Positions 5,728 through 17,243 of a stretch of 37,580 nt of DNA are shown in pieces; the first letter of the stretch is position 1; every line of letters begins with the position of its first letter. This DNA comes from a virus. Both the position numbers and the translations under genes were made by a program. Below the pieces are notes generated by a model, which worked only from the letters and a program-made list of their open reading frames with translations, was not told the DNA's origin and made no database searches. The stretch is taken from positions 1-37,580 of the IMG/VR virus record IMGVR_UViG_3300021961_007393. One strand, 5' to 3'.

Positions 5728-6183
5728 TTAATATTCGTTATCGTTACCACTGTCGTCGTTAGTTCTACGTGTCTGGCGAAGATATGGAGATACAGTTGGA
5801 ATTGGCTCCAATGGCTCTGGGTCTTCCATCTGAAGTAGATCATCTAGATCTTCTTGATTTACAATGGTTGCATATCCATCTACGCCAACATCTGGAGTAG
5901 TATTGTGAGTAATGTATAAGAAATATCCAGACTCGCCGAGAGAATAAACTGTCTCTGCATCTAGACTTAACATTGGCATTTCATATCCAGGAGGAATCAG
6001 AATACCAAATCTTTCTAGAGTACCACGAACAGCATTGATAAACACTGCGCTGTTTACAAATGGATCCTCAGTGACTGCATCTAATGCATCATTGATATCG
6101 TCCAATTGAGCAACAAATTGATCTGCTTCTATTTCAATAGACAGATCTTCCTCTTCCTCTAGAAATTGCTTAAAAGTTTGCAT
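5728..6183 (-). CDS. Acidic protein with capsid-targeting-like N-terminus
   Basis: About 151 residues, acidic, starting MQTFKQFLEEEED. The first ten residues follow the pattern of T4 capsid-targeting sequences, with Leu-Glu-Glu as a possible prohead protease site. The start at 6183 is preferred over an in-frame ATG at 6201 because AAGGA lies 10 bases before it, while nothing useful precedes 6201, and because it puts the motif at the N-terminus. The body contains short helices and a tail rich in Pro, Asp and Asn. It overlaps the upstream gene by 14 bases. A packaged or scaffold-associated protein is inferred. Confidence 0.62.
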   Translation of the reverse strand: MQTFKQFLEEEEDLSIEIEADQFVAQLDDINDALDAVTEDPFVNSAVFINAVRGTLERFGILIPPGYEMPMLSLDAETVYSLGESGYFLYITHNTTPDVGVDGYATIVNQEDLDDLLQMEDPEPLEPIPTVSPYLRQTRRTNDDSGNDNEY

Positions 6184-6958
6184 TTGGTTTTGGTCCTTCA
6201 TGTCCAGGAATATTTCCCATGATATTTGGCGAAGTGTTACGAATACTTACTTCTAATTCTGGTTTGGTATTTACTTTATTGCGAATACCTCTGTACTTAT
6301 CCATCACTTTCTTAACACGATCATTTTGCTCTGCTGATTCAGATACTTCTTTAGTTTGCGCTTTCTTTGTTGTTCTTCTGGCTTTTCTTGCAGCCCTTTC
6401 TGCTGCTAGTTTCTTAGCCTTCTCGCGCTTTTCCAATTTCTCGCCAGCCCAAGAATATGCTGGAGCATTGAAAACCTTTCCAGCAACCTTGAGTGTTCCA
6501 CTAAGTAGACCCTCATCCACTGGTTTGACTTCTTCTTCCAACTCTGACATTAGATAATTAGCAGAAGTTTCAATATAGTCTTTGGCTAGTGTGATCTTAG
6601 ACTGCACCCATTCAGGTAGATCTGTCTCTGGCTCTAGATTGTCCAGCATTGCCTGAGAGTTACGAATGATGCTACGCAACTGAGACATTGCCATGTCACC
6701 TTCGTAGCCATACTCGCCTTCGTCTTCTTTACTCTTAGGTTTGATGGCTTCATTCATCGTATCGCCCTCCGAGTTGGTATCTTCAGCCCTAAAACGGCTC
6801 AATGATCCTTTTACGGTGCGAGGACCAAATTTACCTTCACCATCAAGTTGTAAATAAACCATGCCGCCCTCAACCTTGGTGACTTTGCCTTTAAACCCAG
6901 CACCTGTTGATGTCTTCTTATCTAATACCAAACGACCTCTTTGTCCTACTTTTGCCAT
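6170..6958 (-). CDS. Two-domain late protein (SH3/KOW-like plus helical domain)
   Basis: A 262-residue protein starting MAKVGQRGRL. Residues 1-60 look like a small SH3- or KOW-like beta barrel (VGQRGRL, GFKGKVTKVEGGMVYLQLDG). Residues about 80-125 (EGDMAMSQLRSIIRNSQ, LPEWVQSKITLAKDYIE) match from memory a helical module that recurs in late proteins of T4-like aquatic phages. The C-terminal half is a very basic Ala/Lys/Arg coil and a disordered tail. The start at 6958 is chosen because a longer reading adds only out-of-frame sequence of the upstream gene. A second ATG at 6757 has GGAGGG 8 bases upstream, so a shorter 195-residue product starting MNEAIKPKSK may also be made. Confidence 0.65.
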   Translation of the reverse strand: MAKVGQRGRLVLDKKTSTGAGFKGKVTKVEGGMVYLQLDGEGKFGPRTVKGSLSRFRAEDTNSEGDTMNEAIKPKSKEDEGEYGYEGDMAMSQLRSIIRNSQAMLDNLEPETDLPEWVQSKITLAKDYIETSANYLMSELEEEVKPVDEGLLSGTLKVAGKVFNAPAYSWAGEKLEKREKAKKLAAERAARKARRTTKKAQTKEVSESAEQNDRVKKVMDKYRGIRNKVNTKPELEVSIRNTSPNIMGNIPGHEGPKPNANF

Positions 6959-6959
6959 T

Positions 6960-8285
6960 TTACAACCCCTTCTTCTTGGCAATTGCCTTGCCAATCGCCT
7001 GACGACGAGCATGCAGATAAGCATCTGTCTTGTCTACTTTCTTATCATTATTGATGTCTGTAGTTTCAGAACCAACAGGATCTAGTTTTTCCTGCACCAC
7101 TTCTTCATTCTTTGCGCGTTTCTTTGCATAGTAAGCACCAAGAGCCATGTTCATACGCTCTTTCTTGCTCTTACCTTCAAACTTAGGATTGTCAGAATGC
7201 ACGAAGTCAGAGATCCACTTTGATGCTGGATCACCTGCTGTTAGTTTTTCTTCGATGTACTCGACTTCTTCTCGCCAAAGGATCTTCTTCGCCTTACGTT
7301 CATGTTTCGGAGGAACTTCAAACGCAACGTGATTTTCGTATGGTGAGCGTTTTTTGCGAAAAGAAACACCTGCTGCCTTTAGATTATTCTCGTGATCCTC
7401 TATAGACCTGTAACCTGCTCCGATCGGGGTGCTCAAACTCACCCAATTTTCATCCACCTGTTCGATTTCTTCGTTGTATACCATTTTTGGTTCTTGATGA
7501 TTAACAACGTGAACCTTATATTTTTTACCTCCATGTTCCACATTAACATGCTCTTCGTCTTCACCAGTAGCATTAACGAGTGCTGTTACATGGTGTGGTT
7601 TAAGATGAGGATTCTGTTTCTTAATTTTTCTGGCAGTCATGTGATCTTCAAGATCACCATTTCTTGGAATCGTCATAGAATAATCTTGACCGCCTACTGT
7701 TCCAGTATATCTCAAATGTCGAGATGCACCTTCATCCACCTGCTCGACTTCTTCGTTCTTCATCTTGCGCAGAACAAGAGTTCCAGCCTTGTTGCGAGTA
7801 ACTGTGTGCTTGCCTTTGCTTTCGATGGACTTTCTTAGTGCACCTGTTAGATCTTTTTCTTCTTTCATTTTCTTTTTATCCTTTTCTGGAAGAACCTCAT
7901 CGTAATTTGAATGCCCAGCCAAGCCTGTGCGAACCCCAGCCCCTGATTTGATTGCTGCTCTAATGTCCTTCATGCTAGATGGACTATATGCTCCAGATCC
8001 ACCTGCACCTGAAGTCTTTTGTGGCGCACCAGCAGTTCCACGTTCCATCGCTGCTTTCATTCGACGCATGTTTTCACGACGAACATCTGATATCTTTCCT
8101 GATGCAGTTTTCTCGCCGCGACTTAGTTCAGAGGTTGCCACACCCTTCTTTGCAGGTGATCTCTTTGCAGCTGCAGCCGATCTGCCTTCTGCTGATGGGA
8201 ATGGTTTGCCACCACCGTGAGCAGCCCACCACTTCTTCTGCAAAGCCGATGACATTTTGCCCCACATCTTTGGTAGATCAGCCAT
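6960..8285 (-). CDS. Modular late protein with repeated acidic linkers and EF-hand-like loop
   Basis: A 441-residue mosaic. The N-terminus (WGKMSSALQKKWWAAHGGG) is followed by a basic Ala/Lys region. Small domains are then separated by near-identical acidic linkers: NEEVEQVDE (177-185), NEEIEQVDE (271-279), EEVEYIEEKL (339-348) and NEEVVQEKL (393-401). The region 350-395 (DPASKWISDFVHSD, KKERMNMALGAYYAKK) recalls a module repeated in many aquatic phage late proteins. Residues 410-421 (DINNDKKVDKTD) have the D-x-N-x-D spacing and final Asp of a calcium-binding EF-hand or dockerin loop. It overlaps the preceding gene by 8 bases. The function is unknown; a structural or packaged multi-domain protein is likely. 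Confidence 0.66.
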   Translation of the reverse strand: MADLPKMWGKMSSALQKKWWAAHGGGKPFPSAEGRSAAAAKRSPAKKGVATSELSRGEKTASGKISDVRRENMRRMKAAMERGTAGAPQKTSGAGGSGAYSPSSMKDIRAAIKSGAGVRTGLAGHSNYDEVLPEKDKKKMKEEKDLTGALRKSIESKGKHTVTRNKAGTLVLRKMKNEEVEQVDEGASRHLRYTGTVGGQDYSMTIPRNGDLEDHMTARKIKKQNPHLKPHHVTALVNATGEDEEHVNVEHGGKKYKVHVVNHQEPKMVYNEEIEQVDENWVSLSTPIGAGYRSIEDHENNLKAAGVSFRKKRSPYENHVAFEVPPKHERKAKKILWREEVEYIEEKLTAGDPASKWISDFVHSDNPKFEGKSKKERMNMALGAYYAKKRAKNEEVVQEKLDPVGSETTDINNDKKVDKTDAYLHARRQAIGKAIAKKKGL

Positions 8286-8568
8286 TATCGTACTCTCTTA
8301 TTCTAAGTTTTAGATCCGTTGTCCCGCGCTTTATACGATGATGCAATCTAGCGGGAATGTAGATTACATCACCAACTTTCAGCATACTAGGAAGAGCGTC
8401 GTCGAACTGTAGTTCCCAACCCTCTCCCTGCAAAACCTCAACAATACGATCATTTAGATCATAGTGCCATTTCAATTCTTCATCGAGCACATCGCACGAA
8501 AAGGTGCGTATGAACTCAGTCTTATTTAGTTTCTGATCATCGTAAGGATGATCTTCGTCTACCACCAT
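8278..8568 (-). CDS. Small cupin-like protein
   Basis: A 96-residue protein. The C-terminal half (LKVGDVIYIPARLHHRIKRG) resembles the second conserved motif of cupin beta barrels, with two histidines near the metal-binding position; the first motif is not obvious. It overlaps the end of the large fusion gene by 10 bases and the start of the next by 8, so its translation is coupled to both. Proteins of this type occur beside late genes of T4-like aquatic phages. It may be an enzyme, a metal-binding protein or a small structural barrel. Confidence 0.6.
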   Translation of the reverse strand: MVVDEDHPYDDQKLNKTEFIRTFSCDVLDEELKWHYDLNDRIVEVLQGEGWELQFDDALPSMLKVGDVIYIPARLHHRIKRGTTDLKLRIREYDNG

Positions 8569-10796
8569 AGTTGACCACTATTGCTGAAGAATCTTGGATA
8601 ACGGCATGCCCAGTAGGAAGCCGAAGTCTTATCCTTGTTTCCTAGGCAATTATGGCGAGCCATGAATGATTTCAAACGACCTGGATCGCGATATTTCTTT
8701 GCCATTCCAGACTGACTAAAGCGAACCTTCTTGACGCCACCATCGCCTGTGCGCACATAGACAGCACCGCCACCACCCTCACGCCATGGCTTGCCGATGC
8801 CCTTACCACCTGTTTCATCTTCTTCGTTCAAATCGTCGCAGTCATCGCAACAGGCTTCTTCTTTCTGAATCGAAGTCTTGACAGCTTCTTCTTCGTCAGC
8901 CTCATCTTTGCTCAATTTACGAACATGCTTTGGCGTCTTTTCTTCTTCTAGGAATGGGAAGTCAAGAAGCACTTCCATACCTTCGTACATTGCGGTTTCA
9001 CCTAGATCACTTTCTAGCACTTCCTGTTCGTATTCATCAGCAGGAGTGTAGTCACCATTAGCATATAGATTCTTGGCTTCACGGATCAGTTCAAAGAACA
9101 TATCACTTCCTGGACGGAAGATATTCTCAGCGAACGGAATCTGATTCTCTAGATGATACTGTACTGCTTCTTCTAGGGATACTGATTCAGTTTGCGTCAA
9201 ACCAACAGCGTATCCACCTGAGCCACCCATTCTAGCATCATAATCTTCACCAGGAGTTTTCTTGCTCTTTGGTAGTTTCTTTGTTTTCAAAGTTGGTGTG
9301 GTATCAACTGTCTGTCCAGGAGTCATTGAAGCATAAGCATTTCTGGTTTCCGTTGTACCATATTCCAATGCTTCCTTCTGTTGCTTGCCTCCTCTGGCAG
9401 CATAGGCTTCAGCATCTTTCATATTATTGAAAGATCTTGATTGCTTGAGTCTACGATTGGTGACGCGAAATCCTTGCACACCACCCATTCCAGTTACTGG
9501 AACGATCTTTGATTCTTTTCCAACTGCCTCTTTCACATACTTCACTCTTGGATCATTTTTCTTCAATTTCTTGGGCACATTTCTTCCATAGCGATCTTTT
9601 CTAAAATCACTAGGTTTAGAAACATCAGCCAAAGAAACTACTGGAGTGCCCTTTAGATTATCACTTTCTTCAACTGGCACGCAGTTTGGAACCTTGCGAC
9701 CGTTCTTCATCTTCATCCCAACGGCAGTGTATCCCTTCCAGCAAGCCTTCTTTAGATCTCCAGTTGGCTCAGCAACCTTTTTCTCAAAGACATAGCCGTT
9801 CTCAATCATGAACTTTAGGAATGCTTCAATTTGCATTTGGAATACAGATAGTTCTTTCTGTGATGCTTCAGAAAGATTCAATGAATTCTCAAACTTGAAA
9901 ACGCCTTCGAACATATCTGTGGTTCTTTCAGCATCTAGCCACTTGCGAATACGAGTAGATTCATTCATTGGACGAGCACGCATATCATTGCGCTCACGAC
10001 TGACCTTATTGGTCACTGACACTAGAGTGTAATCAAACTCATAGGATTCACCAAGAGTCGCGCGAACCAATGCAATCTTCTCCAGATCAATTGGAGCATT
10101 GATGAGTAGATTGGAACCAGACTCCAATACTTCATTGATTGATCCATTTAGAATCTGATCCATCTGCACTTCAACGACGTTAAAACGCGATAGGATATTA
10201 TTGATGACATAGTCCTTGCCGCTGCCAGGACCGCCCAATAAGAATAATGCTCTTGATTCGCTCATTGCTTTTTTTACCTTGTCGTGAATTTCAGCACCAA
10301 GTTTTCTGTTTGTATAATGTGAAATAAACTCTTTGCGCTTACCAGCGGAAACTAACCCACGCAACTTAGAGGCAGACATACCTTCCGCACCTTCAGCATC
10401 TGGATCGCGAGAACCAGCTGACTTGACTTCAATTTTCTTAAACTTAAAATCTTTACCATTGTATTTATTCACAATTCTTTTGTACTCTGGAACACGATCA
10501 GATCCAGCGTACATTGTGACATGAGTGTGACCCTGTTTTTCTAAATGCTGCATTACACCAATTAGATTTGGATGTTTCTTGGAAACAACATTTGCGCCAG
10601 GAAACATCTTGCGCATAGCTCTAGTTTTGACCTGATGTGATAGAGGATTCTTTTCCGAATCTCGAGAATGAGAAGCAAAGATATAATGCTTTCCACCAGT
10701 GCTTTCAGCATGATCCATGACTTGCTTCACTAACTTGCCATGTCCTGCTTCTGTTGGAGGATTAAAGCGACCGTATGTGAATGTTGCTCTGCTCAT
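8559..10796 (-). CDS. Nucleotidyltransferase / P-loop kinase / virion-domain fusion
   Basis: A 745-residue multidomain protein. Residues 1-150 are a HIGH-type nucleotidyltransferase: YGRFNPPTEAGHGKL replaces the classic GxFxPxHxGH, and GMSASKLRGLV near 139-149 matches the second catalytic motif. Residues 182-300 form a P-loop domain with Walker A GGPGSGKD at 188-195, similar to zeta-toxin or small-molecule kinases. Short modules follow (KACWKGYTAVGMKMKNG near 349), then an acidic helical module (SLEEAVQYHLENQIPF, 540-600). The C-terminal domain (GGKGIGKPWREGGG, KSFMARHNC, ASYWACRYP, ending LWW) matches from memory a domain of aquatic T4-like virion proteins. The substrate is unknown. It starts inside the end of the neighbouring KWDG gene (4-base overlap). 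Joining two catalytic domains to virion modules suggests an enzyme carried in the particle. Confidence 0.75.
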   Translation of the reverse strand: MSRATFTYGRFNPPTEAGHGKLVKQVMDHAESTGGKHYIFASHSRDSEKNPLSHQVKTRAMRKMFPGANVVSKKHPNLIGVMQHLEKQGHTHVTMYAGSDRVPEYKRIVNKYNGKDFKFKKIEVKSAGSRDPDAEGAEGMSASKLRGLVSAGKRKEFISHYTNRKLGAEIHDKVKKAMSESRALFLLGGPGSGKDYVINNILSRFNVVEVQMDQILNGSINEVLESGSNLLINAPIDLEKIALVRATLGESYEFDYTLVSVTNKVSRERNDMRARPMNESTRIRKWLDAERTTDMFEGVFKFENSLNLSEASQKELSVFQMQIEAFLKFMIENGYVFEKKVAEPTGDLKKACWKGYTAVGMKMKNGRKVPNCVPVEESDNLKGTPVVSLADVSKPSDFRKDRYGRNVPKKLKKNDPRVKYVKEAVGKESKIVPVTGMGGVQGFRVTNRRLKQSRSFNNMKDAEAYAARGGKQQKEALEYGTTETRNAYASMTPGQTVDTTPTLKTKKLPKSKKTPGEDYDARMGGSGGYAVGLTQTESVSLEEAVQYHLENQIPFAENIFRPGSDMFFELIREAKNLYANGDYTPADEYEQEVLESDLGETAMYEGMEVLLDFPFLEEEKTPKHVRKLSKDEADEEEAVKTSIQKEEACCDDCDDLNEEDETGGKGIGKPWREGGGGAVYVRTGDGGVKKVRFSQSGMAKKYRDPGRLKSFMARHNCLGNKDKTSASYWACRYPRFFSNSGQLWW

Positions 10797-11983
10797 TTTC
10801 TTTCTGCCATTTTTGCTTTGACACCACCAGCAAGAAGATTCGACGCAGCGAAGTCTCCTTGACGACGACTGACTAACTTGGTTGGCATGTTATTGATAAT
10901 AGCAACATGCCCTTCTCCGCTAGTCTTTCTACCCTCAATGCTATGTTCATAATCACCGCTATCATTTAGCGCATCTACCAATGCATGCTTGGCATTTTGT
11001 AGGTGACGATGAATCTCAAAAGTTCTTTGAAATGCGGCTTTGTTCTTTTTGATATGTTCCATATCTGCTGAATTTTTTGCAGCGACCTTGGCTTTACCTG
11101 CAGCTGACTTGAGTTTAGAACCAGCAGCTGCGTTGCGAGCTGCAGCGTGTCTCATCAATCCCTCTACGGATGCAGTTTCACCACTGCGCACGTTCTGATT
11201 GATATAAGTGGCAACGTGCATCTCATGACCCTGTAGATGACGATAGTCATGACCGCGATGTAACTGTTGAGCCTTGCGCATAGAAGAAATAAATTCACGA
11301 CGATGCTCTGGCTTATAGGTATCTTTGAGATCTTCAATTCCAGTCTGAGTATCAATTACATGGACGTCGCGATGCTTGCCAAAAGAATTGACATTAGGAC
11401 CAAAGTGCGCTTTCATTGAGTCTAGTGTGCGACCCTTGTATTCGGTATGCACAGCCACGCCCACCTTGGCTTTACCCACTTTCTTGCCTTCTTCGCTGTC
11501 CTTACGAATAGAATAGTTGATGGTGTTTGGCTTAAAGTTATAATGCGTAGAAGATGAAGAAACATCTCCTGGAGTGTACATCATGTCACCCTGAAATACA
11601 CGACCTCTTGGTGTGACCTTGGGTAGATGAGCCAGCGCATGCTTGAGTTTCTCGACTAGACCAGGAGCATGCCCATGGTTCTTTTCGATATCCTTGTCAG
11701 TATAATTGATCTTTGGATTCTTGTTAAATGCAGACTTAGAAGCAACAAAGAACTTACCATTCTCAGGATGAGTTCCAAAGACGATAGAAGGTGCACCGTC
11801 CCACTTGGTGGTGATCTTGACTCGAGATTTACGTCCCTGAAGTGCGTTATGAACGCCGATTAGAGTTTTGGATGCATGCTCAAAACCAGCTGCGCCCGAA
11901 TTGACAATATGATCTTCAGCGTGCTCTAGGTGCTTTAGTTTCTCGACTTTGGCTTCTGTTAGGAACGATGTAAATGATAGCAT
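10793..11983 (-). CDS. Ligase-like (KWDG) nucleotidyltransferase with capsid-targeting-like N-terminus
   Basis: A 396-residue protein of a family found in T4-like aquatic phages and usually left unnamed. TTKWDGAPSIVFG has the K60-x-D62-G63 signature of covalent nucleotidyltransferases (DNA/RNA ligases, capping enzymes). FVASKS (79-84) could be motif Ia, FQGDMMY (130-136) motif III, and VGVAVHTEYKG (174-184) motif IV. The order and spacing fit an adenylation domain, but I see no certain motif V. The rest is basic and Ala/His-rich. The N-terminus MLSFTSFLTEA resembles a T4 capsid-targeting sequence with a Leu-Thr-Glu cleavage site. It is the first gene after an exact late promoter. A packaged nucleic-acid ligase or AMP-transferase is the leading inference. 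Confidence 0.68.
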   Translation of the reverse strand: MLSFTSFLTEAKVEKLKHLEHAEDHIVNSGAAGFEHASKTLIGVHNALQGRKSRVKITTKWDGAPSIVFGTHPENGKFFVASKSAFNKNPKINYTDKDIEKNHGHAPGLVEKLKHALAHLPKVTPRGRVFQGDMMYTPGDVSSSSTHYNFKPNTINYSIRKDSEEGKKVGKAKVGVAVHTEYKGRTLDSMKAHFGPNVNSFGKHRDVHVIDTQTGIEDLKDTYKPEHRREFISSMRKAQQLHRGHDYRHLQGHEMHVATYINQNVRSGETASVEGLMRHAAARNAAAGSKLKSAAGKAKVAAKNSADMEHIKKNKAAFQRTFEIHRHLQNAKHALVDALNDSGDYEHSIEGRKTSGEGHVAIINNMPTKLVSRRQGDFAASNLLAGGVKAKMAERK

Positions 11984-12012: not shown

Positions 12013-12840
12013 TTATTTATACTTTTTGTATACTTGATCCCATGTAGGCAGAGAAGAAAAATTAAAGGTTTGCTTGAACTTGGAATTATTCAGAACACCA
12101 TTTTTCGGTCTCTTGGTCTTGGACGCAACGTATTCCTCTGTAGTTATCTTATTAATCTTACATCTATCTCCGACTATAAGTTCTGCGAATTCTGCAAAAC
12201 TGCAATTACCGTCAGGATTTAGATTAAATATACCATATTGGGGTTCATCTAATACATTGAAGACCATTTCTGCAATCCAGGCAGCATGAGTTGGGCAAGT
12301 GATCTGATCATCTATCACATTGATGGATTCCAATTTATCAGCCAATGCATCAATGCTCTTATAGAAGTTCTTATTTCTACCAGAATATACACACTGGACT
12401 CTGAAAAGTTTGGTCTTACTATAATTCAATGATCGTTCAATCTCAGACTTAGTTGATCCATAGAAATTTAATGGGTTATGATAATCTTTCTCTGTATAGG
12501 ATTCTTTAGTACCATCAAAGACATAATCCGTTCCAAAATGAATGAACTGGGAATTATACTGAGCGCACAAATAATTTAAGTGTAGCGGAAAAGAATAATT
12601 CAGATAGCGACACTTATCATGATTGTTTGGCTTCTCAGCTCCATCTACATCAGTATAAGCCACGCAATTGATCACATGATGGGGTCTGATGAACTTGAAT
12701 AACTTATCCAATTCTTCTCTAGAATTGTAATCTATGTTATCGCTATTCATTGCGATTGTAGAATACGATGTCTCCAGCAATTCAATCATTGAATTACCGA
12801 TTTGTCCATTAGATCCAAACAACAAAACTCGTTCAATCAT
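12013..12840 (-). CDS. rmlD: dTDP-4-dehydrorhamnose reductase, RmlD-like
   Basis: Last step of dTDP-L-rhamnose synthesis: NADPH-dependent reduction of dTDP-4-keto-L-rhamnose. The 275-residue protein has the N-terminal Rossmann motif (LLFGSNGQIGNSM), the family pattern HFGTDYVFDGT, and the catalytic Tyr-x-x-x-Lys in FYGSTKSEIE. The C-terminus (SLPTWDQVYKKYK) is typical. The ATG at 12840 is chosen because GAGG stands 9 bases upstream; it overlaps the end of rmlC by 8 bases. The stop codon is part of a late promoter for the next cluster. The product rhamnose donor could modify phage or host surface glycans. Confidence 0.88.
   Translation of the reverse strand: MIERVLLFGSNGQIGNSMIELLETSYSTIAMNSDNIDYNSREELDKLFKFIRPHHVINCVAYTDVDGAEKPNNHDKCRYLNYSFPLHLNYLCAQYNSQFIHFGTDYVFDGTKESYTEKDYHNPLNFYGSTKSEIERSLNYSKTKLFRVQCVYSGRNKNFYKSIDALADKLESINVIDDQITCPTHAAWIAEMVFNVLDEPQYGIFNLNPDGNCSFAEFAELIVGDRCKINKITTEEYVASKTKRPKNGVLNNSKFKQTFNFSSLPTWDQVYKKYK
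12014..12021 (-). promoter_or_regulatory. T4-type late promoter TATAAATA heading the late cluster
   Basis: Exact T4 late promoter core on the minus strand, about 31 bases upstream of the ATG at 11983. It overlaps the last codons and stop of the rmlD gene (TAT AAA TAA). All genes from 11983 down to 1807 can be read from it. Confidence 0.65.
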
Positions 12841-13375
12841 AGTCAGGTGCCTCATCTATGTGTAAACCATTACGATCTTTATCAGTTATGATAATGTCTT
12901 CAAGAAGAACATGTTTTACCACCTCATTGACTATTTCTGGCACAGTCAAAAATGAAACACAGCGTTCGTCCTCTGGGTATCTAATATTATCAAATACATT
13001 GTAGCAGAATGCAGTGTTGTCTTCTAAACTCAAAAACGCATGAGCAAAGTGCTGGGGGACCCAAAGATAATTTAGTTTATCCTCACTCAACTCATACATC
13101 TGAACTTTCTTGTAATTAGGAGACCACTTCCTCAAGTCAATAATGAAATCTATAACGCGACCTCTCATCACATATACCATTTTACCTTGGGGATATTCTT
13201 CTTGATAGTGTAGTCCGCGAAATACATTTTTCTTGTTCAATGAAACATTTTGTTGTATGAAATACAAGGAACTGAATGGTGACTTAGTTGAGTTCCATAA
13301 TTCAGTGAAACCACCTCTATGATCTTCGAAGATAGTTACTTCATTCATTCCAGTTATCAATTTAGGTTCACTCAT
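12833..13375 (-). CDS. rmlC: dTDP-4-dehydrorhamnose 3,5-epimerase, RmlC-like
   Basis: Epimerase that converts dTDP-4-keto-6-deoxyglucose to dTDP-4-keto-L-rhamnose in the cytoplasm. The 180-residue cupin-fold protein shows the family signatures DHRGGFTELW, VFRGLHYQ with the catalytic base His56, GKMVYVMRGRVIDFIIDLR, and YLWVPQHFAHAFLSLED. The length is that of the family. It overlaps the oxygenase gene by 4 bases (ATGA) and rmlD by 8, so the three are translationally coupled. With RmlA, RmlB and RmlD in the same cassette, all four steps from glucose-1-phosphate to dTDP-L-rhamnose are present. Confidence 0.92.
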   Translation of the reverse strand: MSEPKLITGMNEVTIFEDHRGGFTELWNSTKSPFSSLYFIQQNVSLNKKNVFRGLHYQEEYPQGKMVYVMRGRVIDFIIDLRKWSPNYKKVQMYELSEDKLNYLWVPQHFAHAFLSLEDNTAFCYNVFDNIRYPEDERCVSFLTVPEIVNEVVKHVLLEDIIITDKDRNGLHIDEAPDYD

Positions 13376-14124
13376 CTCTGCACATCCCTCCTCAATTCAA
13401 TCAACCTCAAAACATTAGGATCATTTTCTTGCTCTTTAGTTGGGAAATATAGTGCTCTGGTTCTAGTGTCTGCGTTTAGTGTTGGATTCATAACATAATA
13501 CACCGCAATCGATTTTCTATATACTCCCTCTGGGCAAGTAATTGGTTCTGGAAATCCATGCCAAGAATTTTGAGTAGTGTCAAAAATCACAGCACGATTA
13601 AACCTCACATCTATGGTTTTGACTAATTCTTTTGGTCTGAAATCCTCCTCATCATGCGACCAAAATTGCAGACCACCATTCCAATCGCAATCCCATTCTT
13701 GTGAAAGATATATGATAATATTTAACTTTCTCTGCATGTTCATCTTTGGGTGAATAGAATAATCTTGGTGTATGTTTAACTTACCACCTCTACCGTGCAT
13801 ATGCCAGCCACCACCATTCAATCCATAATCTGCATGCAATTGAGCGTTGAATTTTCTAGATAACAGAAAAGCGAACTTCTGTTGACACAAAATCCAAAAT
13901 GCTTGAAAGGTTTCTGGTGGGAATTTATCCCAAAAATTCATTGCGCGCTTGACTTCTAGTGGATTGTCATAGTTATACCAAGGAGAATTATTATATTCAG
14001 GAAATTGGTTTGATAGTTTAATTGCAAAGTCTTCTGTGAAGAAATCATCGATGATTATGTGATTAAATGGTTCCTCACACAATTCACCATTTTCTATTTC
14101 CAAAATAGCATCATACGATATCAT
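13372..14124 (-). CDS. 2-oxoglutarate/Fe(II)-dependent oxygenase
   Basis: A 250-residue dioxygenase of the prolyl-hydroxylase-like fold, a type common in aquatic T4-like phages. The iron-binding triad is visible: NIHQDYS gives His119 and Asp121, SWHGFPEP gives His189, and Arg203 in GVYRKSIAVYY should bind the carboxylate of 2-oxoglutarate. Upstream, FNHIIIDDFFTED is the usual family opening. It lies inside the sugar cassette, overlapping rmlC by 4 bases and the RfbH-like gene by 14. The context suggests it hydroxylates a sugar nucleotide, a glycan or a glycosylated protein, but the substrate cannot be read from sequence. Confidence 0.85.
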   Translation of the reverse strand: MISYDAILEIENGELCEEPFNHIIIDDFFTEDFAIKLSNQFPEYNNSPWYNYDNPLEVKRAMNFWDKFPPETFQAFWILCQQKFAFLLSRKFNAQLHADYGLNGGGWHMHGRGGKLNIHQDYSIHPKMNMQRKLNIIIYLSQEWDCDWNGGLQFWSHDEEDFRPKELVKTIDVRFNRAVIFDTTQNSWHGFPEPITCPEGVYRKSIAVYYVMNPTLNADTRTRALYFPTKEQENDPNVLRLIELRRDVQR

Positions 14125-15418
14125 GCAAACTTCTCCATTTTTCTAGCACTGATCTATAATAATCAAACACTCTCTTGTTGTAGTGTGGAGGGCATCCCAC
14201 AAAGAATACATGGGAAAGCGCAAGATTAGACATAGGATAGTCTGCTGCGTTATCTAAGTGTTTGTATCCAGGATGCAATAAAATATTACCTGCAAAATAA
14301 TTACGAGTCTGGATTCTGTTATCCTCCAAGAATTGTTGCAGTTCTTCTTTCAACTTAGAGTTATCGCAAACCAATGGTACACCAAACCAAGATGGATCAG
14401 ACTTTTCTAAGTTACTAGCAACTCTAACACCTTGAACTACAGCAAACATTTCTTTGATAGTCGAAAAGTTTTCTCTGCGCTTGACATCAATTTGATCAAT
14501 CTTTTTCAATTGTTCAATACCAATTGCGCCTTGCAGATCCAGTGGCTTTAAATTGTATCCCATATTGGTGAAAAGATATTTGTGATCAATAATCCCATCA
14601 TAACCTTCCAACCACTTATCAAAACGATTGCCACATGTACCACAAGCCAAGAGGTTAGCAGAACCAACGCATCGACAATCTCTACCCCACCATGAAATAG
14701 AACGAACAGTATTAATCAATTCTTCGTCATTAGAGCAGACCATACCACCTTCGCCAGTTGTCATATGATGTGCTGGGTAGAAAGAAGTTGTCCACGAATA
14801 GTAGTAGTCGGTCAGCAACTTGCCATCCCACTTACTGCCCAATGAATCGCAATTGTCGCCAACCAATACCAAGTTATGCTTTTCCGCAATCATCCTCAGC
14901 ACATCCATGTCTGGTGGATTACCCAGCACTGGAGATACAAAGATTGCTACTGTTCTATCTGTGATTCTCGACTCAATCAAAGTTAAATCGAAATTTAATG
15001 TTGACCATTCAATATCAATGAAAGTTGGCTTCAGATTATTTTGCACAATTGGAGCAATGGTGGTTGGGAATCCAACTGGAGATACGATTACTTCATCTCC
15101 GTCTTTCCATCCCAAATGTTTCTTCAATGCAGTAACCATCGTTAAATTTGCAGATGATCCTGAGTTCACCATGTGTGCATGCTTCACGTTAAACTTGCGA
15201 CAAAATCTCCATTGAAACTTGGCTACATTTTCTCCAGAAACTAACCATTTACCAGTTAGAAATGCAGTCACACCAGCAATAACTTCATTCTCATCCCAAT
15301 AAGGTCCAGAATAAAATACATTATCTTTCTCTGGGTTAAACTCCTTTGGATTGTATGATGCATACTTAGGCATCCCATGATGCTGAATGATATCTCTAAT
15401 TAAACTTTCAATTTCCAT
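14111..15418 (-). CDS. RfbH/E1-type 4-keto-6-deoxyhexose 3-dehydrase (PMP and Fe-S)
   Basis: DegT/DnrJ/EryC1-fold enzyme of the special RfbH (E1) branch that removes the C3 hydroxyl of NDP-4-keto-6-deoxyglucose on the way to 3,6-dideoxyhexoses. The usual PLP-binding lysine is replaced by histidine in SFYPAHHMTTGEGG (His217/His218). The cysteines expected to hold a [2Fe-2S] cluster are present: Cys190 in GDNCDSLG, Cys248 and Cys250 in GRDCRC, and Cys259 (Cys262 as alternative). This closely follows the C-x57-C-x-C-x7-C spacing known for Yersinia E1; here the last gap is eight. Length 435 fits. No E3 reductase (RfbI-like) is visible, so the electron donor must come from elsewhere. It abuts rmlA. 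Confidence 0.87.
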   Translation of the reverse strand: MEIESLIRDIIQHHGMPKYASYNPKEFNPEKDNVFYSGPYWDENEVIAGVTAFLTGKWLVSGENVAKFQWRFCRKFNVKHAHMVNSGSSANLTMVTALKKHLGWKDGDEVIVSPVGFPTTIAPIVQNNLKPTFIDIEWSTLNFDLTLIESRITDRTVAIFVSPVLGNPPDMDVLRMIAEKHNLVLVGDNCDSLGSKWDGKLLTDYYYSWTTSFYPAHHMTTGEGGMVCSNDEELINTVRSISWWGRDCRCVGSANLLACGTCGNRFDKWLEGYDGIIDHKYLFTNMGYNLKPLDLQGAIGIEQLKKIDQIDVKRRENFSTIKEMFAVVQGVRVASNLEKSDPSWFGVPLVCDNSKLKEELQQFLEDNRIQTRNYFAGNILLHPGYKHLDNAADYPMSNLALSHVFFVGCPPHYNKRVFDYYRSVLEKWRSLHDIV

Positions 15419-16299
15419 TAATCCTCCAAAGAAGAAAGAAGTTTGCCATATGATGATTTACCACATAGCAATGCAGTTGTGTTTAGTTGATCTTTTGTAA
15501 TCCAATACTTATTATACGCTATTTCGTGCGGAGAGCCAACCAAAACTTCCTGATGTTTTTGTATAGTTTGTACAAAGTTAGACGCTTCAATTAATGAATC
15601 TGGTGTACCAGTATCAAACCAAACCACTCCGCGCCACAGTTTAATTCCTGTTAGATCACCAGTCTCCATGTAAGTCTTCAATAGATCAGTGATTTCTAAT
15701 TCACCTCGGTTAGAGGGTTTCAATTTACGAATCCTATCCAACACATTTTTTGGGAAGAAATACAATCCAGTGATTGCAAGATTGCTCTTTGGATGTTCTG
15801 GTTTCTCTTCAATAGACATCACACCACCCTGATCTGAAAGTTCTGCGACACCGAATCGTTCAGGATCGTGAACCTTAGTCAAGAAACAATATGCGCGTTC
15901 TTGATCGTCGTAATGTGCTTCATGTAACAACTCACTCATGCCCGCACCATAGAAAATATTGTCACCTAGAACTAAGGCATAGCGATCATAACCACCAAGG
16001 AATTGTTCGTTTACAATATTGAATGCATCAGCGATACCTGCTGGATAATCCTGAGTAGCAAACATCACTTTAATACCCAGAGTGTTCTCTGAGTCATAGA
16101 ATAATTCCTCAAAGATTGGCTTCTCTTTTGGATTAGTTATAATCAAGAATTCGCGAACGCCAGCCAGCATTAGCGTTGATATAGGATAATATATTAAAGG
16201 CTTGTCGTAGATTGGCAATACTTGTTTGGTTGTTACAAGTGTTGCTGGGAACAAACGACTAGACTTGCCTCCAGCTAGGATGACACCGAGGGTCTGCAT
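15418..16299 (-). CDS. rmlA: Glucose-1-phosphate thymidylyltransferase, RmlA-like
   Basis: First enzyme of dTDP-sugar synthesis: dTTP plus glucose-1-phosphate give dTDP-glucose. The 293-residue protein shows LGVILAGGKSSRLFPAT (the nucleotide-binding loop, with GGKSSR in place of the usual GGxGTR), KQVLPIYDKPLIYYP, LVLGDNIFYG, SIEEKPEHPKSNLAITGLYF and RGELEITDL. The length is that of the family. It overlaps rmlB by 25 bases and shares one base with the next gene. The altered glycine loop is worth noting but occurs in other family members. Confidence 0.92.
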   Translation of the reverse strand: MQTLGVILAGGKSSRLFPATLVTTKQVLPIYDKPLIYYPISTLMLAGVREFLIITNPKEKPIFEELFYDSENTLGIKVMFATQDYPAGIADAFNIVNEQFLGGYDRYALVLGDNIFYGAGMSELLHEAHYDDQERAYCFLTKVHDPERFGVAELSDQGGVMSIEEKPEHPKSNLAITGLYFFPKNVLDRIRKLKPSNRGELEITDLLKTYMETGDLTGIKLWRGVVWFDTGTPDSLIEASNFVQTIQKHQEVLVGSPHEIAYNKYWITKDQLNTTALLCGKSSYGKLLSSLED

Positions 16300-17243
16300 A
16301 GTTCAAGCCACTCCATATTCTGTCGATACCACTGAATGGTTTTCTCCATACCAGGGATTAGACTGGTAGTTGGTTTCCATCCAAGTTCTAGATGTATCTT
16401 ATCATAAGAAACATCATACCTAAAATCATGACCTTTGCGATCAGTTACAAATTCAATCTTTGATGCCGAGCGGCACATGTCAATGATTAGATTGGCAAGG
16501 AATAGATTATTCACCTGACATCCACCGCCAATGTTATATTTATGTCCTGTGCGACCACGCTCAATTACGTCAATGATGGCTTGGCAGTGATCTTCAACGT
16601 ACAGCCAGTCGCGAATATTATGACCCTTGCCATAGACAGGGATAGGTTCATTCTTCAATGCTTTACGAATTACAGTTGGCACAAACTTCTCTGCATGCTG
16701 ATAAGCACCATAGTTGTTTGAGCAGTTGGTGATTACAGTATCCAAAGCATGCGTATGATGATATGCCATTACAAAGTGATCTGATGCAGCCTTGGAAGCA
16801 GAGTATGGACTGCGCGGATCATATGCAGTGGTTTCGCTGAACGCTGGATCAGATGAACTCAGCGAGCCATATACTTCGTCGGTTGAAACATGCACAAAGC
16901 GAATGCTTGGATCAACAGCCAATACGCAATCAAGTAGATTGACAGTGCCTAACACATTGCTGTATACGAATGGCTTAGAGTCACGAATGGAATTATCCAC
17001 ATGACTTTCAGCAGCAAAGTTTACAATGGTCTTTGGGCGAAAGTTGCGTATCAGCGGTTCAACGAACTCGCGCGATGCAATGTTACCAACAGCGATAACT
17101 GCCCCTGTACCTTCTATGTTTTGTTTATTGGCTGCATAGGTCAGCGCATCCAGCACCATGATTCGATCATCGTATAGACTTGCATAACGACGAACAAAAT
17201 TACTACCAATGAAACCACATCCACCCGTCACCAATATAGACAT
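16275..17243 (-). CDS. rmlB: dTDP-glucose 4,6-dehydratase, RmlB-like
   Basis: Short-chain dehydrogenase family enzyme that converts dTDP-glucose to dTDP-4-keto-6-deoxyglucose with bound NAD. Visible signatures in the 322-residue protein: ILVTGGCGFIGSNFVRRY at the N-terminus, FAAESHVDNSI, VSTDEVYGSL with the catalytic Thr-Asp-Glu, and YSASKAASDHFV with Tyr-x-x-x-Lys. The product is the branch point for both RmlC/RmlD (rhamnose) and possibly the RfbH-like enzyme downstream. It is the first gene of the sugar cassette and lies 11 bases after the unknown gene upstream. Confidence 0.93.
   Translation of the reverse strand: MSILVTGGCGFIGSNFVRRYASLYDDRIMVLDALTYAANKQNIEGTGAVIAVGNIASREFVEPLIRNFRPKTIVNFAAESHVDNSIRDSKPFVYSNVLGTVNLLDCVLAVDPSIRFVHVSTDEVYGSLSSSDPAFSETTAYDPRSPYSASKAASDHFVMAYHHTHALDTVITNCSNNYGAYQHAEKFVPTVIRKALKNEPIPVYGKGHNIRDWLYVEDHCQAIIDVIERGRTGHKYNIGGGCQVNNLFLANLIIDMCRSASKIEFVTDRKGHDFRYDVSYDKIHLELGWKPTTSLIPGMEKTIQWYRQNMEWLELCRPSVSS

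Follow-up and report, generated by a model that had tools for sequence, protein, structure and literature searches.

The DNA analyzed here (the window) comprises 37,580 bases of a T4-like aquatic virus recorded in IMG/VR (IMGVR_UViG_3300021961_007393). Its minus strand encodes a sliding clamp, clamp loaders, a DNA polymerase, UvsX and a replicative helicase; downstream of the helicase come further genes, then two overlapping genes that we call A and B, with a primase further on. Gene A (10793..11983, minus strand) encodes a 396-amino-acid protein that matches the Pfam family DUF6267 (E 3.4e-94) and is a predicted nucleotidyltransferase of the ligase superfamily. Gene B (8559..10796, minus strand) encodes 745 amino acids comprising a nucleotidyltransferase (NTase) domain, a P-loop domain and C-terminal modules, and overlaps gene A by the sequence ATGA. 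A preliminary description of this DNA had given coordinates and motifs for both genes, and these are exact, including TTKWDGAP and Lys60 in A and GRFNPPTEAGH, GMSASKLR and GGPGSGKD in B. A 62-kb IMG/VR contig (L001) carries an identical copy of gene A.

DUF6267, to which Pfam assigns no function, is the sole Pfam match listed for A. The protein has a ligase-like site and further motifs in ligase order, as the preliminary description had claimed. Motif I (KWDG, residues 60-63; 11795..11806, minus strand) lies within TTKWDGAP and contains the candidate nucleotidyl-lysine Lys60. We compared 205 A open reading frames (ORFs), excluding ten that fell short of full length; K-x-D-G-x-P is kept in all 195 that remain and, by simple patterns, motif III (QGD) in 190, motif IV (EGxV) in 191 and motif V (KxV(D/S)R) in 185, in order. 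Residues H18, H21, E23, K60, D62, G63, Q131, D133, E357, G358, V360, K369 and R373 are invariant in an alignment of 84 rows (the window plus 83 loci, drawn from 92 kept of 151 near-full sequences). A also has features of its own, namely an invariant HxEHxED start and a helical insert of about 120 residues. A shorter relative, the 295-residue gp87 of phage S-CREM2, retains the motifs.

An AlphaFold2 model of A built from these 84 rows has a mean predicted local distance difference test (pLDDT) score of 92.9 and a predicted template modeling (pTM) score of 0.90. The comparison with ligase folds that the preliminary description had proposed places RNA ligases on top. In a structural aligner used as a second method beside Foldseek, the best match is Naegleria RNA ligase (Z 9.6 over 184 residues, 3.6 Å), followed by T. 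brucei REL1 (Z 8.4) and, in the range below 8 where this aligner cautions that a match may be a common arrangement, T4 Rnl2 (7.9), fungal Trl1 (7.8), T4 Rnl1 (7.7) and DNA ligases (6.8 and lower). The RNA ligases span Z 9.6 to 7.6, and all 50 entries among the matches listed are RNA, tRNA or DNA ligases. A thus resembles T4 RNA ligase 2 (RnlB) and Naegleria RNA ligase in predicted fold and in the order K-x-D-G, G-D/E, E-G-x-V, K-x-x-x-R, with the alignment to T4 Rnl2 beginning at residue 3 of Rnl2 and residue 14 of A. Unlike those enzymes, A has no detected profile similarity to them, no C-terminal domain after motif V, a 120-residue helical insert, a head-targeting tag and a partner NTase. 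Compared with T4 gp30 and other ATP-dependent DNA ligases, the structural match is lower (Z 6.8 and below), and A has neither a match to PF01068 nor an oligonucleotide-binding (OB) fold domain, as only 23 residues follow Arg373 up to residue 396. T4 rnlB itself (L178 2837-3841) is sited between the head gene 24 and hoc.

Several results count against assigning A to the ligases. Eleven of the top 12 structural rows are a single protein, Naegleria RNA ligase. Foldseek alone gives the A model no match under E 0.2, although its list is headed, without significance, by an RNA-repair ligase complex and T4 Rnl2. Aligning the A profile with the T4 Rnl2 profile in hhalign gave a probability below 1% in all settings, and the Rnl2-family profile PF09414 matched neither A nor 12 of 13 phage records searched. 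Motif III has Asp in place of the usual Glu, and motif V also differs from its textbook form. The link of A to ligases rests on fold and motif order; sequence profiles miss it. A search of solved structures with the DUF6267 profile by sequence returned a sole match, which was helical and which we rejected as spurious.

Taking the model and the motifs together, we judge it very probable that A belongs, as a divergent member, to the covalent nucleotidyltransferase (ligase/capping) superfamily, and somewhat more probable than even that its chemistry is end joining. The ligase fold could instead serve in capping nucleic acids or in transferring a nucleotide to a protein or small molecule, without joining ends. 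Capping enzymes do occur in the Foldseek list for A, the C-terminal domains of Rnl2 and of DNA ligases are absent, and the HxEHxED start and large helical insert are peculiar to A; nevertheless, RNA ligases outrank all others in the second structural alignment, and we consider this alternative quite unlikely.

The first 180 residues of B (10257..10796, minus strand) form an NTase domain of the HIGH superfamily, of the type of PPAT and NMNAT (phrog_3041, E 2.3e-48). Both the (H/T)-x-G-H motif, lengthened by one residue in TEAGH, and the S-x-(S/T)-x-x-R motif occur, and the fold agrees: in a comparison likewise proposed by the preliminary description, the predicted structure matches PPAT with Z 14.5, NadD with 13.2 and NadM with 12.7. 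The HIGH motif (residues 7-24) is one residue longer than in most relatives, reading PPTEAGH as compared with PPTxGH; L003, L007 and L154 are among the near relatives with the same insertion. Residues 181-340 (9777..10256, minus strand) contain GGPGSGKD and form a P-loop domain, which in relatives is of the AAA_33 or zeta-toxin type (three of eight scanned proteins above the Pfam cut-off, together with L157 for zeta toxin). This domain is optional: of 149 NTase ORFs, some of them cut, 26 have GGPGSGK after the NTase, and in L138 and L159 the P-loop proteins are encoded by separate ORFs adjoining A.

An alignment for B comprised the window plus 57 sequences, drawn from 73 kept of 139. A model of 349 residues of B has a pLDDT of 93.0 and a pTM of 0.69, a value that leaves the relative placement of the NTase and P-loop domains unsure. 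Foldseek with the whole model places NTase-plus-kinase proteins on top, including an ATP sulfurylase with a kinase-like domain (E 7e-7) and NadR (E 3.6e-6). By sequence alone, B gave a weak adenylate kinase match through its P-loop among solved structures, which we set aside as no useful link. On the modeled fold, nicotinamide mononucleotide, phosphopantetheine and other compounds would all fit as the acceptor. Like NadR, B is a single chain in which a HIGH NTase precedes a P-loop domain; it differs in having GKD in its Walker A motif and in not being listed as a nadR family member, its relatives scoring far below the cut-off.

The domain order of NadR, together with the NadM- and NadD-like fold of the B NTase, raises the alternative that the NTase and kinase rebuild nicotinamide adenine dinucleotide (NAD+) destroyed by host defenses, with A using or protecting NAD+. 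Such rebuilding of NAD+ has been suggested for virion NMNAT-like proteins (PMC9602691), and NAD+ salvage by phages has been reviewed (PMC9503650). Against this stand a PPAT fold match at least as good, NCBIfam nadR scores of 15.8 and 18.7 bits in two relatives against a cut-off of 341 (the family is not listed for B), and the finding of no P-loop domain in most NTase ORFs as available. NadV occurs in one of the 13 records (DLP_6), which makes NAD+ salvage the weaker reading, and we regard it as doubtful.

A and the NTase are often encoded together. They form a single chain in 9 of 164 A ORFs, including that of S-PM2, and a fused or separate NTase occurs at 85 of 104 distinct A loci; in the other 19 none was seen within the stretch examined around each. 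Among loci from genome contigs, the count is 24 of 36. In S-PM2 and S-SZBM1 the DUF6267 and NTase genes are sited between gp41 and the primase/nrdA genes, and in S-SM1 they come after gp41 and mazG, the other flank lying outside the sequence examined. In S-CREM2 the two genes lie far from each other, at 58.9 and 124.6 kb, as they do in S-SCSM1, at 221 and 89 kb. The NTase family, with 527 phage records against 468 for DUF6267, extends to phages that are not on the DUF6267 list. Given the fusions, the shared loci and the two phages with distant genes, A and the NTase appear to cooperate but to be separable. The description of A and B as a pair thus holds insofar as fusions occur, and fails as an obligate rule. 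Four loci (L107, L111, L112 and L124) encode an A-NTase fusion plus a second, motif-altered NTase ORF downstream (for example CAFGDFDPPTTAHELM).

The first ten codons of A (11954..11983, minus strand) encode MLSFTSFLTE, a T4-type head-targeting tag with a predicted cut before Ala11. The start of A, MLSFTSFLTEA, follows the same plan as that of T4 ipII/ipIII, MKTYQEFIAEA, in agreement with the capsid-targeting sequence that the preliminary description had proposed. Like IPII and IPIII, A begins with a ten-residue segment ending in (L/I)-x-E; unlike theirs, its putative cargo is a predicted enzyme. The tag lies in the least confident part of the AlphaFold2 model. Among 203 anchored A relatives (two A ORFs lacking an anchor were excluded), 164 have the tag pattern, and in 137 of them its Glu is residue 10. 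Two positions ahead of this Glu, all 164 have Leu or Ile, although the pattern also permits Val, Met and Phe; because the rows are related, these are not 164 independent events. The remaining tag residues vary, while residue 10 and the Leu/Ile position are conserved.

The tag behaves as a modular label. On a tree of 110 rows, reduced from 194 at 80% identity, its distribution requires at least 16 changes, 12 of them forced by starred branches, compared with a mean of 27 after shuffling; the label has thus been gained and lost within clades. At 77 distinct loci with an unfused NTase, the tag is on A only in 56, on both proteins in 12, on the NTase only in 3 and on neither in 6. We rejected a rule that exactly one of the pair is tagged, given the 12 loci that tag both and the 6 that tag neither, at least one of which (L062) appears tagged yet misses the pattern. 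The B protein of the window lacks an N-terminal tag. Among Kyanoviridae, the DUF6267 proteins of S-PM2, S-SM1, S-SZBM1 and S-CREM2 are untagged and those of C48C1 and Melnitz-3 tagged or tag-like; DLP_6, outside that family, has a tagged one.

Published mass spectrometry allows the tag to be compared with virion content. NTases homologous to that of B were detected in virions of S-SM1 (T4-GC190; PMC3037559), S-CREM2 (ORF154, three peptides; PMC10665884), S-SZBM1 (S-SZBM1_140, two peptides; PMC9146016) and S-SCSM1 (ORF91; PMC9602691). All four are tagged, beginning MKKFSAFLNEA, MKNFSSFLTEA, MRFRQFIIEA and MKSFLQFLKEA, respectively. An NMNAT-like virion protein is also reported for S-CBWM1 (PMC10665884, PMC9602691), outside the four NTases that we compared. 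The window differs from these cyanophages in that the tag is on the ligase-like A, not on the NTase, and in that B has an added P-loop domain. Under a strict tag pattern that we fixed before counting, S-CREM2 has 3 tagged proteins among the 52 detected in virions and none among the 101 undetected (p 0.038); loosening the pattern raises this to 4 of 52 and 2 of 101 (p 0.10). These counts and those for S-SZBM1 below omit coding sequences under about 225 nt. Overall, packaging accompanies the tag where this can be checked, on few cases. By this rule A of the window is predicted to enter the head, whereas nothing is predicted for B through its N-terminus.

B may be associated with virions through another part of the chain. 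Its residues 341-400 (9597..9776, minus strand) match SSZBM1_139 (E 1.8e-7) and S-CREM2 gp160 (E 7.7e-5), both detected in virions by mass spectrometry. This module, shared with virion proteins of other phages, is thus of a virion type, as the preliminary description had proposed for the C-terminal domains of B.

Other observations argue against packaging of A. In S-SZBM1 the tag does not predict virion detection (1 of 30 detected and 2 of 130 undetected proteins, p 0.47), and a broader pattern set after the S-CREM2 analysis gives the same counts. The untagged DUF6267 proteins of S-SZBM1 (_141) and S-CREM2 (gp87) appear in neither of the two virion lists checked. The profile of the gp21-type protease (PF03420) points both ways: it matched four of seven related records, which favors packaging, but had no match in the 62-kb contig with the identical gene A, which is a fragment. 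For the virus of the window, packaging of A would follow by analogy. The proposal that the pair is built for the virion thus draws support from the virion NTases of four cyanophages, and is weakened by the untagged B of the window and by the missing untagged DUF6267 proteins. We also considered SSCSM1_90, the virion protein preceding the S-SCSM1 NMNAT, as a DUF6267 protein and rejected it, as it is not one.

These counts bear on a rival explanation of the N-terminal segment, that it is an ordinary amphipathic start common to many proteins of these phages, with no packaging role. Two of the three strictly tagged S-SZBM1 proteins are outside the published virion list, and the window encodes a second tagged ORF of unassigned role. 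The strict pattern is rare, however, at 3 of 153 S-CREM2 proteins and 3 of 160 S-SZBM1 proteins; the segment follows the T4 ipII/ipIII plan, the four virion-detected NTases all bear it, and residue 10 and the Leu/Ile are retained amid an otherwise varying segment. We consider an ordinary amphipathic start improbable.

Further tagged proteins occur in the window and in cyanophages. Among 102 ORFs of at least 75 amino acids in the window, the strict tag is found only in A and in the ORF at 5728-6201 (minus strand, internal start 6183; MQTFKQFLEEEED), which has no PHROG match at 1e-5. In S-CREM2 (L180 3837-5081, 7704-10313, 10579-12846), a virion-detected S-adenosylmethionine hydrolase and an APH-like kinase are strictly tagged, and a virion-detected Cas9-like protein has the tag-like FASFMAEA near residue 19. 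The small proteins S-SZBM1_191 and _192 (L186 4312-5126) are strictly tagged, adjoin a virion structural gene and are absent from the published virion list; they are candidate low-abundance internal proteins.

A T4-type late promoter sequence, TATAAATA, lies 30 nt before the A start codon (12014..12021, minus strand). In the window this 8-mer occurs twice, compared with 1.60 occurrences expected, and is thus not above chance. Across the family, 37 of 132 distinct upstream regions contain it in the 150 nt before A, compared with a mean of 1.6 and a maximum of 4 after shuffling. Among the 37, 21 have it 29-51 nt before the start and 10 at the same 139 nt; given this shared distance and the relatedness of the regions, the independent number is smaller than 37. 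The late promoter claimed in the preliminary description is therefore present and enriched in the family, and does not exceed chance in the window. Late transcription of A is accordingly suggested at the family level.

The distribution of DUF6267 may point to a further role. Of the 468 phage records with DUF6267, 454 are named Synechococcus phage, cyanophage or Prochlorococcus phage. Among the 13 records searched with profiles, DUF6267 is present in 12, including all seven Kyanoviridae, and absent from T4. For ligases, PF01068 matched T4, DLP_6 and one IMG/VR record, PF01653 matched none and PF09414 matched T4 only; the seven Kyanoviridae match none of these three profiles, other ligase profiles lying outside the search. 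Queries with T4 gp30 and the DLP_6 ligase matched 2,520 and 2,294 phage records, respectively, and Synechococcus was outside the ten commonest names (tenth place, 53 and 49 records). DUF6267 queries matched 369 and 366 Synechococcus records. A 2010 review reports that gene 30 homologues were not found in cyanomyoviruses, leaves distant unrecognized homologues possible, and considers substitution by a host ligase the more probable answer (PMC2984593). Among the shared genes of unknown function in Table 2 of that review is S-PM2_138; going by the number, it is probably identical to the DUF6267 gene S-PM2d138.

DUF6267 might be primarily a replication and repair ligase that replaces the missing T4 gene 30 ligase, untagged and cytoplasmic in several cyanophages, with the head tag an added use in relatives. 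Its presence in 12 of 13 records, its position among replication genes in the window, S-PM2 and S-SZBM1, the four untagged cyanophage proteins, the absence of matches to three ligase profiles in the Kyanoviridae and the review's account of gene 30 all fit this explanation. It is weakened by the review's preference for the host enzyme, by DLP_6 and G003, which hold DUF6267 alongside an ATP DNA ligase, by the lack of an OB domain after motif V in A, and by the structural rows, which prefer RNA to DNA ligases. Moreover, the search covered three ligase profiles only, S-CREM2 gp190 is annotated as a DNA ligase (it matched none of the three), and a tRNA ligase is reported in 2 of 16 cyanophages (PMC3037559). 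We view a primary replication role as possible, at less than even likelihood. Equally tentative is a broader proposal, in which DUF6267 would be the long-missing polynucleotide ligase of T4-like cyanophages and a new family of the ligase superfamily; in relatives like this virus, the modular ten-residue tag would have moved it into the head, to be delivered with the genome at the start of infection.

For the window itself, the best overall explanation, to which we give about even chances, is that A is a divergent polynucleotide ligase, probably loaded into the head, and B a nucleotide-cofactor enzyme. The analysis itself establishes the sequence, conserved motifs, predicted folds, the tag pattern, family late-promoter enrichment and gene fusion, and tagged NTase relatives are published as virion proteins; the packaging, cleavage and injection of A, its substrate, the cofactor and the benefit are our inference. 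A would be transcribed late, as the family-level data suggest. As in T4 and the tagged NTases, its tag would direct entry to the prohead and storage in the head, where a gp21-like protease would trim it after LTE, and A would be delivered to the next cell with the DNA. There A would most likely adenylylate or seal broken ends of nucleic acids, with Lys60 taking a nucleotide from ATP or NAD+ and handing it to a 5'-phosphate before the end is joined, as fold and motifs suggest. B would make or recycle a nucleotide cofactor through its PPAT/NMNAT-type NTase, aided by the NadR-like P-loop domain. Arriving at entry, the ligase might mend tRNA or other RNA that defenses have cut, or nicks in the incoming DNA, before early genes act. 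The initial observation of the two genes and their motifs is thus confirmed, and its interpretation as a packaged system is in part supported.

The preliminary description held that these proteins lack a described function. For DUF6267 this agrees with the literature searched, in which neither "DUF6267" nor "cytitidyltransferase" gave a match and, mostly by titles and abstracts, no description of the A-NTase pair was found. For the NTase, presence in virions and an NAD suggestion are already published (PMC9602691). New, as far as the literature was searched, are the assignment of DUF6267 to the ligase fold, the evidence that it is both fused to and paired with the NTase, its modular T4-type tag, the agreement of the tag with the few virion data and the fit to the absent ligase of cyanophages. 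The ligase assignment makes the missing-ligase question testable with one purified protein, and the tag, which occurs on the ligase-like protein, on its partner NTase or on the two fused, provides a sequence rule for asking which enzymes of a virus are carried in its particle.

Two features flank the pair. Between the helicase and gene A lies what we take, by eye, to be an rml-type deoxysugar cassette (12013-17243, minus strand); in cyanophages, mazG and small genes occupy this spot. On the other side, a gene at 6960-8285 (minus strand) encodes a 441-residue protein whose PHROG matches are all weak and fall in families of unknown function. Acidic segments recur in it between short modules (EEVEQVDE, EEIEQVDE, EEVEYIEE) and are possibly protease sites.

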